A stretch of 34,275 bases of DNA, taken from assembly GCA_001769125.1 (NCBI GenBank), contig MEOG01000048.1, positions 1-34,275 of the forward strand. Reading direction: 5' to 3'. Both the position numbers and the translations under genes were made by a program. Under the pieces are notes generated by a model. That model saw only the letters and a list, made by a program, of their open reading frames with translations, searched no databases and was not told the DNA's origin. This stretch comes from Bacteroidetes bacterium GWF2_35_48. Its GTDB lineage: Bacteria; Bacteroidota; Bacteroidia; Bacteroidales; GWF2-35-48. This document shows, piece after piece, positions 20,016 to 25,144 of the stretch (its first letter is position 1; every line of letters begins with the position of its first letter).

Positions 20016-21785
20016 TTATTTAAAAAAAACATTTGCAATTTCTGCCTTTGCTTTTCCAATAACATTTCCCAATTCTTCTAATGAAGCGGCTTTGATGTTT
20101 TCAATGGTTTTAAAATGATCGAATAATTTTTGTTTTATTTTGGGTCCGATTCCTTTAATTTCATCCAGTTCAGAAACAATAAAAGCTTTGGAGCGCTTGT
20201 CTCTGTGGAATGATATTCCAAAACGATGTGCCTCATTTCTGAGTTGCTGTATAAGTTTTAATGATTCTGAATTTTTGTTCAGATATAAAGGAATGGAATC
20301 ATCCGGGAAATATATTTCTTCTAATTTTTTTGCAATGCCTACAATTGCTATTTTTCCTCTCATTTTAAGTTTTTCGAGACTGTTTACTGCTGCGCTTAAT
20401 TGTCCTTTTCCTCCATCTATAATTATTAGCTGAGGTAAAGATTTTTGTTCTTCTAAAAGCCTTTTGTAGCGTCTGAAAACAATTTCTTCCATTGAAGAAA
20501 AATCATCAGAACCAACAACTGATTTGATATTAAAATGCCTGTAATCTCTTTTGCTTGGTCTTGAATTTTTAAATACTACACAAGCAGCTACAGGATTTGT
20601 TCCCTGAATGTTTGAATTGTCGAAACATTCAATGTGTATGGGTAATTCAACAAGTCGCAAATCTTTTTTTAAAGTTTCAAGTACGCGTTGTATTTTTTCA
20701 TGAGGATTTATTTTTTCAAGTTGCAGCAATTTTTCTTTCTGATAATATTTTGCATTGCGCCAGGACAGGTCGAGCAGCTTTTTTTTATCGCCACGTTGCG
20801 GTATGGTAAAAGATATTTTATCAAGCGAAAAATCCGGATCAAAAGGAACCAGTACTTCTGTTGAGACACTGTCGAAACGATTTCTTAGTTCAACGATAGC
20901 CATTGAAAGCAAATCTTCTTTTGTTTCTTCAATGCGTTTTTTCAGTTCAATCGTGTGGCTTTGAATAATAGCGCCACTCATAACTTTCATAAAATTCACA
21001 TACGCCACATTTTCATCATCAATAAAAGAAAAAACATCAATGTTGTTTAAGGAAGCATTAACAACGGTGGAGCGACTTTGAAATTTCTCCAGCACTTCTA
21101 TACGCTCTTTTACCTGCTGCGCTGATTCATATTTATATTCTTCTGCATATTGATTCATCATTTTTTTCAGATAAATAGTTACAGAATGCAGATTTCCTTT
21201 AATAATATTTTTTATCTCCTCAATGGTTTGCAGGTATTCTTCTTCCTGCTGATTTCCCACACAGGGACCCTTGCAGTTCCCTACATGATATTCCAAACAG
21301 ACTCTGAATTTTTTTTGTTCAATATTTTCTCGCGTAAGTTTAAGATTGCAGTTGCGTAGATGATATAGTTGCTTTATAAGTTCAAGAAGAGTTTTCATCG
21401 CATAAACAGAGCCATAAGGACCAAAATATTCTGACCCGTCTTTAATAAGAGTGCGGGTTGGAAATACTCTTGGAAAATGTTCTTTTTTGATACAAATCCA
21501 GGGATAGGTTTTATCGTCTTTCAGCATCACGTTGTATCGTGGCTGATGTTTTTTTATCAGACTGTTCTCAAGAAGTAGTGCCTCTGTTTCTGTATCAACC
21601 ACAATGTGTCTGATGGTTTCTATTTTCCCTACTAAAATTCTAATCTTGCCTGTATCGTGATTTTTATTGAAATAAGAAGAAACACGCCGTTTCAGATTTT
21701 TTGCTTTCCCGATATAGAGTAACTGATCATTGCTATCATAGAATTGATACACGCCCGGAAGCTCTGGTAGAATGGAAAGAAGCAA
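20016..21785 (-). CDS. uvrC: Excinuclease ABC subunit C
   Basis: UvrC makes the two incisions around DNA lesions in nucleotide excision repair together with UvrA and UvrB. The 589-residue protein has the GIY-YIG nuclease (GVY at 11-13, YIG at 24-26). Four cysteines (146, 163, 171, 175) could hold the Fe-S cluster. A UVR motif lies at about 200-235, and an RNase H-like nuclease with Asp389 (ECFDNSNIQG), Asp457 (IIDGGKGQ) and His520 (RNEAHRFGISFHR). A C-terminal helix-hairpin-helix (DEIKGIGPKIKQKL) follows. All catalytic residues expected are present. No in-frame ATG lies upstream of PELPGVY; the start given is a TTG, and a CTG at 21812 is the alternative. It follows the 11-bp repeat array. Confidence 0.94.
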   Translation of the reverse strand: MLLSILPELPGVYQFYDSNDQLLYIGKAKNLKRRVSSYFNKNHDTGKIRILVGKIETIRHIVVDTETEALLLENSLIKKHQPRYNVMLKDDKTYPWICIKKEHFPRVFPTRTLIKDGSEYFGPYGSVYAMKTLLELIKQLYHLRNCNLKLTRENIEQKKFRVCLEYHVGNCKGPCVGNQQEEEYLQTIEEIKNIIKGNLHSVTIYLKKMMNQYAEEYKYESAQQVKERIEVLEKFQSRSTVVNASLNNIDVFSFIDDENVAYVNFMKVMSGAIIQSHTIELKKRIEETKEDLLSMAIVELRNRFDSVSTEVLVPFDPDFSLDKISFTIPQRGDKKKLLDLSWRNAKYYQKEKLLQLEKINPHEKIQRVLETLKKDLRLVELPIHIECFDNSNIQGTNPVAACVVFKNSRPSKRDYRHFNIKSVVGSDDFSSMEEIVFRRYKRLLEEQKSLPQLIIIDGGKGQLSAAVNSLEKLKMRGKIAIVGIAKKLEEIYFPDDSIPLYLNKNSESLKLIQQLRNEAHRFGISFHRDKRSKAFIVSELDEIKGIGPKIKQKLFDHFKTIENIKAASLEELGNVIGKAKAEIANVFFK

Positions 21786-21837
21786 TGTTATATGATCGTT
21801 ATTTGAAGACAGATTATTATTTTTTAGAACTACGTTA

Positions 21838-22044
21838 GATATTCAATAGTGCTACAATAGATGCTCGGTAGATGGACAATTGCTTCTTCGGTAGATGGAC
21901 AATAGTGCTACGATAGACTTACAATTGTTTCTTCGATAGATGTACAATTGTATTCCTATCGAACACCTATTGAATTCCTATTGTACACCTATTGAATTCC
22001 AATTGAATATCTATTGTACACCTATTGTATTCCTATTGTACATC
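21838..22044. repeat. Inverted array of degenerate 11-bp units
   Basis: The right half (from about 21946 to 22044) is a plus-strand tandem of 11-bp units such as TATTGTACACC, TATTGAATTCC, TATCGAACACC and TATTGTACATC, about nine in all. The left half (21838-21950) contains about ten units of the same consensus, TAT(T/C)G(T/A)AnnnC, on the minus strand, two of them 12 bp long. The halves meet at the palindrome CAATTG (21945-21950). The DNA or its RNA could fold into a long imperfect hairpin with arms of about 100 bp. It fills the gap between the M1 peptidase stop and uvrC, both on the minus strand. It does not have the repeat-spacer form of a CRISPR array. Confidence 0.85.
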
Positions 22045-22051
22045 ATTTTTT

Positions 22052-24376
22052 TCACTGAAGAACAAGTTTTTTAACAGAAATTTTTTCTTTGCCTTCATAA
22101 ACAGTAACAAAATATTCTCCTTTTATGTGTGTGCGTGAATCCCAAACAATTTTATTATTGCCCTTACTTATGTTTTGAATATAAATGATTTTTCCCATAG
22201 AATTTGTGATTTCAATTTTTCCTGTTTTTTTGATTTCATATTCAATTGTTACCTGACTGTCAGTGGGGTTTGGATAAACGTTAAGATGCATTGTGCCCTC
22301 AGTATTGCTTTCAAGAGAAGATATCCAGCTATAGGTAGCAAGTGCGTATTCTCCTTTGTAAAGCGTGTCAACAGTGAGAAACCCAACGTATGCATTTCCG
22401 GTTTTTGTAAATTTTGTTCTTCTCCATTCACGGGAGGAATTTTCGCGGAAGAATATAACAATAGAATCAGTAGTATTAATTAAAAGTTCATGGTCTAATT
22501 GCGTAGATGGGGTTGCATTATAGGAAAACTTTCCCTTTGCAAGAAATCCGTCAGATAAAATACCATCAACTTTATAATACCTGTTTGGTGAAAGCGTATA
22601 TGAAGGGTGGGGCGTTTTGAATCCATCGGGAGCAACCCAGTTGTGCTCAATTCTTAAAAAAGCAGAATCGGGTAAATTTGAAACAATGGCAGTAAAATAG
22701 GCCTTGTCGAATGCATACGTGCCGGTAGTTTTAATAACTTTATAATTATCAACGGTTGCATCGGCTGTTTTTTCTTCCAGATCGGCCATTACGGCTACAG
22801 GATAAAATGGCAAACTAAATACGGCATTTCCGGTTTCACCATTAAAAGAAATTACGCGACTTGTCTGCTGCCATGCAGAATCCATGAATGTTATTTCAAA
22901 TTTATTTGAATTTGCAAATTGAGTGACGCCTTTTAATCGTTGACGAACATAAATATTCACATCAAAATTTTGTCCTGCCGGCGTTACAATGAAAGAATCA
23001 ATTGAGTAATGCGTGAAACCCGGAGAAAAAACAAAAAAATCAAAAAAGTCCGTCAAATCTACACCTGTATGCTGTGAAAGAAAGTCCCGCATCTGAATAC
23101 TTGAAATATTATTATATGCAAACGAATCAAGCATCGCTTTTACAGCAGAAAAAAACAAAGAATCTCCAAGATAATTTTCCAGAGTATGCACTACATTTGC
23201 TCCTTTTTGGTAAACGGTAGAGCAATAGGTCATATCTAAAGGCAATCCGTATACCGCCCTGTATCCACTATCTTCAACATGAAGGTAACGAACAACCTCT
23301 GCATGCCTTGCGCGAACATGACTTTTAAAAGCATCGTGTCCGGTTACATGTTTTCTGAAAATTTCTTCACAATAAGTTGCCCATCCCTCGTTTATCCACA
23401 TATCTGAATCAGTTTTACATGTTATCAGGTTGCCGAACCAGTGGTGTGAAAGTTCATGCGCTAAAAGTTCTTCATAATATAAAGTGTTATCAATGCAGGC
23501 ATTCGGATAAGCAATATTTGTGGCATGCTCCATGGCACCGCTGTTAAAGGGCACTCCGACATAACCCACACGTTCCCACCGGTAGGGTCCAAAACAATCT
23601 TCATAAGCAGCAAGAATATTATTCAGATTAATAAATGAATTTTTTGCTTTAGTCGTGTCTGCCGGACGCACATGAAGGTATGTGGGAATATTTGCCTGAA
23701 TCCCGTTGAATGTGTCAATGACAGCAGCATAATCGCCAACTGCAACAGATGTAAGATAGGTCGGAATAGAATTATTAAGTTTCCAGTGATAGGTTTTTGA
23801 CAGGGTGTCATTATTTGTAACAGATTGCAGTGTTCCACCGCAAACAGCATATTTGTCGAAGGGCGTGATGATATACAAATCATACAGTGCACGATCAACA
23901 AAATCATCTACGCAAGGAAACCAAGTTCTGCCATAGCAATGGGGGTAATCTGCAAAGCCCACACCCAGATTATAAGCTCCTCCGCTGTAAAAATAAAATC
24001 CACCCCAACCGGAAGGATCTGTAACCGGATGCCCGTGATAAAAGACAGTTACCAAAAATGTATCGTTTGCAGAAAAACCTGAAGTCTGAATTTTCAACAA
24101 CGTATCATTGTACGTATAATTTACATCAGAAGAATTAATTTTTACTGAATCAACATTCAATTTTAGTAAATCAAGACAAAATACATCAAGATTGTTAATT
24201 TTTGAAGCAATTCTCAGCTCCGTATTTCCAGAAATTTGCTGATTGATGTAATCTTCAAAATTCAGTGTAATTTTATAATGCAGAACATCTATTGAATCAC
24301 TGTGCAGCTTCGTATTCGCAATCATACTGATATTGAACAGAAGGACTGTTAAAAGAGGCAAAAATATTTTTTTCAT
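22052..24376 (-). CDS. Exported M1-family aminopeptidase with T9SS tail
   Basis: The 774-residue product (ATG at 24376) starts with a signal peptide (MKKIFLPLLTVLLFNISMIA). The M1 N-terminal beta domain follows, then the exopeptidase motif as GAMEH (usual form GAMEN), and the zinc site HELSH with His307, Glu308 and His311. The third ligand is Glu330 in WINEGWATY, exactly 18 residues after the second His. The last ~75 residues form a T9SS type A sorting domain (LNVYPNPTDSQ, ITNSMGKIIY, GEYFVTVYEG, KKLVLQ). It is a secreted metallo-aminopeptidase, presumably feeding peptide uptake. The frame extends 17 codons upstream, but the promoter lies there, so the shorter start is chosen. Confidence 0.94.
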   Translation of the reverse strand: MKKIFLPLLTVLLFNISMIANTKLHSDSIDVLHYKITLNFEDYINQQISGNTELRIASKINNLDVFCLDLLKLNVDSVKINSSDVNYTYNDTLLKIQTSGFSANDTFLVTVFYHGHPVTDPSGWGGFYFYSGGAYNLGVGFADYPHCYGRTWFPCVDDFVDRALYDLYIITPFDKYAVCGGTLQSVTNNDTLSKTYHWKLNNSIPTYLTSVAVGDYAAVIDTFNGIQANIPTYLHVRPADTTKAKNSFINLNNILAAYEDCFGPYRWERVGYVGVPFNSGAMEHATNIAYPNACIDNTLYYEELLAHELSHHWFGNLITCKTDSDMWINEGWATYCEEIFRKHVTGHDAFKSHVRARHAEVVRYLHVEDSGYRAVYGLPLDMTYCSTVYQKGANVVHTLENYLGDSLFFSAVKAMLDSFAYNNISSIQMRDFLSQHTGVDLTDFFDFFVFSPGFTHYSIDSFIVTPAGQNFDVNIYVRQRLKGVTQFANSNKFEITFMDSAWQQTSRVISFNGETGNAVFSLPFYPVAVMADLEEKTADATVDNYKVIKTTGTYAFDKAYFTAIVSNLPDSAFLRIEHNWVAPDGFKTPHPSYTLSPNRYYKVDGILSDGFLAKGKFSYNATPSTQLDHELLINTTDSIVIFFRENSSREWRRTKFTKTGNAYVGFLTVDTLYKGEYALATYSWISSLESNTEGTMHLNVYPNPTDSQVTIEYEIKKTGKIEITNSMGKIIYIQNISKGNNKIVWDSRTHIKGEYFVTVYEGKEKISVKKLVLQ

Positions 24377-24396
24377 AACAACAAAAATTAAAAAAT

Positions 24397-24428
24397 GCAA
24401 GATAGGAATAATGGAGAAGAAGAACAAA
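24397..24428 (-). promoter_or_regulatory. Promoter of the M1 aminopeptidase gene
   Basis: On the minus strand TTTG (24428-24425), a 20-bp spacer and TATCTTGC (24404-24397) follow the Bacteroidota -33/-7 layout; the -7 box lacks one T of TAnnTTTG. The ATG is 20 bp downstream. Confidence 0.4.
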
Positions 24429-25013: not shown

Positions 25014-25060
25014 CTTTATAAATATCACGATTGAATTGGATTTTTTACATTTTGCATCAT

Positions 25061-25144
25061 TTATTGATTTGGAAATTTCGCATTTTATTTCATTTATTGG
25101 TTTGGATTATTTATATTTGCAGTTGGTTATTGATTTGGAAATTT
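25061..25144 (+). repeat. Three direct repeats at 33-bp spacing upstream of the ATPase gene
   Basis: TTATTGATTTGGAAATTT occurs at 25061-25078 and identically at 25127-25144, with a diverged copy TTATTGGTTTGGATTATT at 25094-25111. The starts are exactly 33 bp apart, about three helical turns. The last copy ends 17 bp before the ATG of the ATPase, and the -7 box lies between the second and third copies. They could be an operator array. Confidence 0.75.
25112..25119 (+). promoter_or_regulatory. -7 box of the AAA_14 ATPase gene
   Basis: TATATTTG is an exact TAnnTTTG match 42 bp before the ATG at 25162, placed between two of the 33-bp-spaced repeats. A protein bound to those repeats would cover the promoter. 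Confidence 0.45.

Follow-up and report, generated by a model that had tools for sequence, protein, structure and literature searches.

REP/BIME elements are single palindromes of 20-40 bp that are moved by a Y1 transposase (RAYT), and the cyanobacterial STRR heptamers are dispersed short tandem repeats with a period of 7 bp. The TAACTGA heptamers of Beggiatoaceae, Cyanobacteria and some Bacteroidetes are 7-bp direct repeats that lie mostly just upstream of start codons; dispersed short tandem repeats of several phyla are reported to have no known mechanism (PMC4679880). BrickBuilt, a MITE of Porphyromonas gingivalis, consists of 23-nt direct repeats with a leader, a tail, IS5-type terminal inverted repeats and, in some copies, target-site duplications (PMC4596501). 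Intervening sequences (IVS) of rRNA are inserted in a 23S rRNA helix and excised by RNase III. In the IVS of the Coxiella burnetii 23S rRNA, an S23 ORF lies in the loop closed by a 28-bp stem, and tandem heptamers immediately precede its start codon. The same report describes this IVS as a selfish element and states that the S23/IVP family, first found in rRNA intervening sequences, has been without a known function ever since (PMC4990558).

Here we describe an inverted array of 11-bp units in a window of 34,275 nucleotides, the whole stretch of DNA analysed, from contig MEOG01000048.1 of Bacteroidetes bacterium GWF2_35_48. The array is dispersed like the STRR heptamers, and the S23 genes of cyanobacterial plasmids also have heptamer arms. 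Like the TAACTGA heptamers, it is made of intergenic short tandem repeats with a patchy distribution across phyla; unlike them, its repeats are inverted and 11 bp long, not direct and 7 bp long, and a term search of the accessible text of that paper returned no mention of S23 (PMC4679880). It resembles BrickBuilt, which is present in about 19 intergenic copies in a member of the Bacteroidales, in having a tandem repeat core and no transposase, and differs from it in being an inverted array of 11-bp units in which a leader, tail and IS5-like termini of the type reported there were not seen (PMC4596501). As in the Coxiella IVS, the repeats form an inverted-repeat stem, and in gene-bearing relatives of the array an S23 ORF lies between the arms, with short tandem repeats just upstream of it. 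Unlike that IVS as described, the window copy is intergenic (uvrC/M1) and not lodged in a 23S rRNA helix, carries no ORF, and has 11-bp units instead of heptamers (PMC4990558).

The array, at 21833-22044, comprises 19 units with a CTATTG-like hexamer core, distributed as 10 in the left arm, 1 at the centre and 8 in the right arm. The left arm (21833-21944) carries units on the minus strand, CTATYG followed by AAGAA, TAGCA, TCCAT and similar tails, with CTATTG-like cores at 21833, 21844, 21855, 21866, 21877, 21889, 21900, 21911, 21922 and 21934. Unit polarity flips at the palindrome CAATTG (21945-21950). The right arm (21956-22044) carries units on the plus strand, CTATYG or CAATTG followed by (T/A)A.. 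tails, with cores at 21956, 21967, 21978, 21989, 22000, 22011, 22022 and 22033. Spacing follows an 11-bp lattice except for two 12-bp steps in the left arm (21877-21889 and 21922-21934). The units at 21877, 21922 and 22000 are themselves CAATTG palindromes, and the outermost left unit is degenerate (CGTTAG). Two 23-bp composites, CAATTG-N6-CRRTAG-N5-CAATTG, occur in the left arm, as in the S23-bearing copy described below. Tandem Repeats Finder (TRF) reported units of 11, 22 and 33 bp in the right half and of 23 and 45 bp in the left half. A pattern of three CTATTG cores separated by five nucleotides, with up to 3 mismatches allowed, matched 13 times in the 34 kb window, always within the array, and on average 0.05 times (at most once) in 100 dinucleotide shuffles. 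The inverted array of about nineteen 11-bp units meeting at CAATTG that had been read from the sequence alone in the preliminary description was borne out; its right end stands at 22044, and its left end lies about 5 bp further out than the 21838 given there.

The array sits between the stop codon of an M1 peptidase gene with a Por secretion tail (22052-24427), 7 bp away, and the start of uvrC (20016-21785), 47 bp away. Both genes are on the minus strand and lie outside the element. No ORF was found between the arms, and a search of the array against Rfam gave three matches, all far under the gathering score. A decayed gene was rejected as an explanation, the 11-bp units having stops and no coding sense. 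Elsewhere in the window, a 33-bp tandem repeat of 2.7 copies (25030-25118) lies directly upstream of an AAA_14/DUF4143 gene.

The window array belongs to a dispersed repeat with about 46 intergenic copies in the source genome. Searching the 5.98 Mb source genome with the array by blastn gave at least 97 matches, a lower bound based on scoring 40 of 75 first-look candidates. A lattice finder identified 46 array clusters in 42 fetched stretches and the window, a count in which one array split by Ns (L086) enters as two halves and the pair flanking an S23 gene (L082) as two arrays; the 47-row tables used below add a weak remnant (L076). The CTATTG pattern gave 285/285 matches in this genome against 2/0 for the reversed pattern, and no array was found in 20 further 20-kb tiles outside the fetched stretches. 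The preliminary description had named as refuting evidence a larger repeat or decayed gene at other loci that would explain the units as coding sequence. Half of this was borne out: the larger repeat family exists, whereas its units are non-coding, and one array pair flanks an S23 gene.

Set in one orientation, the elements have a common anatomy: a CRRTAG left arm, a CAATTG centre and a CTATTG right arm. The tails are arm-specific, with ATGTT, TGCAA and ATGTA among those following CRRTAG and TATTC and AATTC among those following CTATTG. The polarity switch CRRTAG-N5-CAATTG-N5-CTAYYG was present in 33 of the 47 rows and the 23-bp composite in 25, among them the S23-flanking arrays; neither occurred in 800 kb of tiles. 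The number of left-arm units in parsed elements ranged from 2 to 46. AATTC heptamers adjoin the right arm in many elements, and 39 of 55 NNAATTC pairs in the fetched loci lie within 120 bp past that end, a count that is approximate as some flank windows overlap. Apart from these heptamers, no common terminus was apparent when the flanks were compared by eye.

All 47 rows were intergenic, with a single 12-bp overlap with an ORF from a simple ORF caller. The flanking genes were both on the minus strand in 15 rows, both on the plus strand in 13, divergent in 11, convergent in 4 and unknown on one side in 4, with two rows of unclear orientation entered as plus. These counts fit insertion into any intergenic gap and not a terminator. 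The array family has the MITE traits of being non-coding, multi-copy and intergenic. As arrays were also seen at contig ends or gaps (L086 5421-5442; the ends of C59, C77, C82 and C119; several contigs of G341 and G249), their number in draft assemblies is probably underestimated.

The S23 family corresponds to PF05635 (23S_rRNA_IVP) and TIGR02436 ('four helix bundle protein'). The source genome (G000) contains six PF05635 matches, five of them above the cut-off. The best of these, C103:27128-27442, is enclosed by two arrays of the window type (L082 4956-5076 and 5487-5648), which have the 11-bp lattice and the 23-bp composite in common with the window array; the 5' arm beside this gene consists of only one or two units of the right-arm type. 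Elsewhere, 11-bp arrays adjoin S23 genes in G215 (C76), G269 (C26) and G202 (C63, on both sides), and two S23 copies in G343 (L358 and L359) have them as well. A lattice of at least 3 units within 180 bp was found at 4 of 36 S23 loci from the source genome, 15 other array genomes and a genome of the same genus (G001), one of the four (L299) having another repeat by TRF; it was found at 0/27 and 0/30 loci elsewhere. Within the source genome, 11-bp arrays occur at one of the 6 S23 genes, which counts against a link with S23; the other S23 genes there are flanked by different short repeats. For example, one locus (L288) carries 8-mers that are inverted on its far side and occur again at C54, C69 and, in two places, C82. 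PF05635 is present in all 16 array genomes except G071. In the order it was found in 298 of 393 genomes, in the phylum in 232 of 296 and among the control genomes in 0 of 14. Because S23 genes are so common, their presence alone does not predict 11-bp arrays. A single genome had as many as 28 matches, some of them truncated or containing stops, and one match (G119 C1:366616) falls inside a control tile. A run of several S23 genes was observed within about 11 kb of another genome (G339 C7:6077-16764).

The different repeats around other S23 genes follow a general rule: across Bacteroidota, S23 genes often lie between two arrays of a private short repeat, one inverted relative to the other. For each S23 gene, the upstream flank was matched to the reverse-complemented downstream flank of the same gene, and the match was ranked against those of mismatched pairs of S23 loci. 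Among the best-scoring S23 loci returned, which are not a random draw, the own match exceeded the 99th percentile of mismatched pairs at 36 of 59 loci from the order Bacteroidales and 10 of 30 drawn from the phylum (46 of 89 in total). Control ORFs gave 0/193 from tiles and 0/42 from the same loci (Fisher p 1.1e-10). The remaining 43 of 89 S23 loci were below the threshold, and a direct-orientation match exceeded it instead at 8/59 and 3/30 loci, respectively. The private repeats are 6, 7, 8, 11, 12, 14 or 16 bp and longer, with AGGCATT/TGCCTAT, GAGGGACT/AGTCCCTT and AATAGTGAATGGTG/CACCATTCACCATT as examples of pairs. The upstream arm was purine-rich at 29/36 order and 8/10 phylum loci.

In at least some genomes, the S23 gene has been copied elsewhere along with its arrays. 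Of seven compared pairs whose S23 genes had nearly equal scores, four proved to be near-identical, recent copies: L352/L353 (613 bp, 93.6%), L358/L359 (812 bp, 92.1%), L362/L363 (465 bp, 93.5%) and L356/L357 (388 bp, 92.3%, both copies at contig ends). In the three pairs with readable flanks, identity spans the gene and arms and ends where the unrelated flanks begin. The other three of the seven pairs had no long identity and are not recent copies. A non-systematic look at the copies revealed no target-site duplication, and no transposase was identified. In both copies of L358/L359, at about 400-620 bases into the stretches, the S23 gene carries an inserted small GIY-YIG frame (Pfam E 3.9e-15), which would be consistent with invasion of the S23 element by a homing endonuclease.

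Alongside the observed dispersal and intergenic placement of the arrays, the array pair bearing an S23 gene, the general rule for S23 flanks and the joint copying in some genomes, we consider it probable that the window array is a solo, gene-less, non-autonomous relative of an S23 element with inverted short-repeat arms. Since the window copy has no ORF, its membership in this family rests on its arms. In the gene-bearing form, two arms would enclose a PF05635 gene; in the window form, the arms meet at CAATTG, the gene having presumably been lost or never carried. The arms would represent the ends of the element, to be recognized as DNA or RNA by the S23 protein or a partner, through which gene-less arrays may spread in trans. 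Slippage could afterwards lengthen and shorten each arm separately. Insertion at this site was probably near neutral for the host.

Slippage could also be the whole story, with intergenic 11-mers expanding into a minisatellite of independent origin that S23 elements merely adjoin or enter. Arm lengths do vary independently of each other, and 7-bp arrays are also numerous in tiles from the source genome (G000) and G119. Similarly, in a scan of named genomes, most of the CTATTG matches outside Bacteroidota, among those listed, resemble unrelated simple 11-bp repeats. This origin is nonetheless unlikely, as the anatomy is conserved in the polarity switch, the arm-specific tails and the composite at 46 clusters in unrelated flanks, which requires copying, and the S23 gene and arrays move together. 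In the tiles (L247-L286), 7 bp was among the commonest tandem periods, with 20 (G000) and 18 (G119) TRF rows per 400 kb; several of the heptamer families are dispersed and may be arms of other S23 elements.

The preliminary description had proposed searching related genomes for the array. Using four CTATTG cores separated by five nucleotides and allowing up to 2 mismatches, the array was found in 2 of 60 relatives and, within the order, in 16 of 393 genomes, the source genome included, against 1/393 for the reversed pattern. The unit tails vary between genomes (wATTY, wATGA, TCTCA/AATCA). Inverted architecture recurs, most clearly at L218 of G269 as (TGAGACARTAG)n, CAATTG, (AATCACCATTG)n, and many loci in other genomes are tandem only. 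The same-genus genome G001 has no array by this pattern; its uvrC is present (68% identical) and the M1 gene is not adjacent, so that there is no empty site to compare. Eight stretches of viral contigs matched the CTATTG pattern and, among the matches listed, resemble unrelated simple repeats; a distant blastn search of plasmids returned no copies of the array. A compact, multi-locus inverted array, (CAATCGTTCTT)n CAATAAA (CTATTGAAGAA)n, was observed in the rumen Bacteroidales RGIG3667 (L131, L135 and L170 by title; also L174, L188 and L189). Five further contigs (L102, L113, L119, L126 and L168; Butyricimonas sp. BRZ_EC bin33 where titled) share a short CTATTG array whose flanks are long, G+C-rich and conserved, in what looks like a different and larger repeat.

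The recurrence of one core with differing tails in 16 of 393 genomes, together with a fixed 11-bp lattice that continues through the centre, could be expected of a regulatory or nucleoid array in which each CWATWG core is bound, once per turn and in both orientations, by a dimeric DNA-binding protein. Binding of a protein to each unit on one face of the DNA had been suggested in the preliminary description. Such a role is improbable given that the arrays show no preference for gene orientation, their unit number is highly variable (2 to 46 per left arm), core mutations are frequent, and the pattern is absent from G001.

RNA folding, which the preliminary description had also suggested, revealed strong structure in both strands of the window array. 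The region 21820-22060 folds at -63.5 kcal/mol on the plus strand (z -4.9) and -71.2 kcal/mol on the minus strand (z -7.5), in each case better than all 200 shuffles, and read-through transcription from M1 to uvrC would yield RNA that folds there. Across elements, arm lengths were uncorrelated (Spearman -0.08, p 0.61, n 42), and folding was no better for native arms than for arms exchanged among elements (mean -25.0 vs -26.4 kcal/mol; native better in 10/26, p 0.28). In 28 of 34 solo elements, the S23-sense strand folded less well than its complement (p 0.0007). The window array is among the 6 exceptions, its S23-sense strand being taken as the minus strand from the 3' arm of one gene-bearing copy. 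These three results disfavour a selected RNA stem. The odds ratio for matching core letters across the arms is 2.4 at equal rank and 0.8 to 1.8 at other offsets; this match may reflect ancestry, from which it is inseparable. The idea, put forward in the preliminary description, of a hairpin that keeps the M1 and uvrC messages apart or shields them is very improbable despite the folding of both strands, in that convergent contexts are the rarest (4/47) with no bias towards convergent or 3'-end positions and the arms are not co-maintained. A terminator or message-separating hairpin was likewise rejected as the main function of the family, the arms not being kept complementary.

Beyond the relationship of the window array to an S23 element, we tentatively propose that S23 is the core protein of widespread minimal mobile elements that end in private inverted short-repeat arrays. 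Orphan arrays, many heptamer arrays of Bacteroidota and Cyanobacteria, and rRNA intervening sequences might then be states of the same element: with its gene, without it, or lodged in an RNA helix. If this is true, each S23 gene brings its own repeat, readable in sequence, and orphan arrays mark past activity. Such a link makes both the function of S23 and the mechanism behind dispersed short tandem repeats testable. Searches of an open-licence library listed no paper that deals with short-repeat arms in inverted orientation beside S23 genes or with CTATTG arrays of 11-bp period, which is weak evidence of novelty as subscription papers and preprints are mostly outside its scope. A profile of 12 S23 proteins gave good E-values only for the S23 structures 2GSC and 2RLD, and a link to Avd of diversity-generating retroelements is not claimed.

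S23 genes also occur on 42 plasmid records, many of them cyanobacterial. In eight plasmid loci, of ten listed, the own inverted flank match exceeded the 95th percentile of 56 mismatched pairs in six and their maximum in three; for one of these three (L402), the direct-orientation match was even better. Arm pairs include GGGAACA/TGTTCCC (Nostoc C052) and GGGTGTA/TACACCC (Calothrix). S23 is listed in the literature as associated with CRISPR adaptation modules (PMC10910872). The link between S23 and its repeats may bear on this association, which could reflect insertion instead of function. Three of the eight plasmid loci lie inside CRISPR operons, and some have inverted repeat arms. Specifically, in L401, L402 and L405, all from cyanobacterial plasmids, the S23 gene is flanked by cas6 and cas4 or by cas10 and cmr3.
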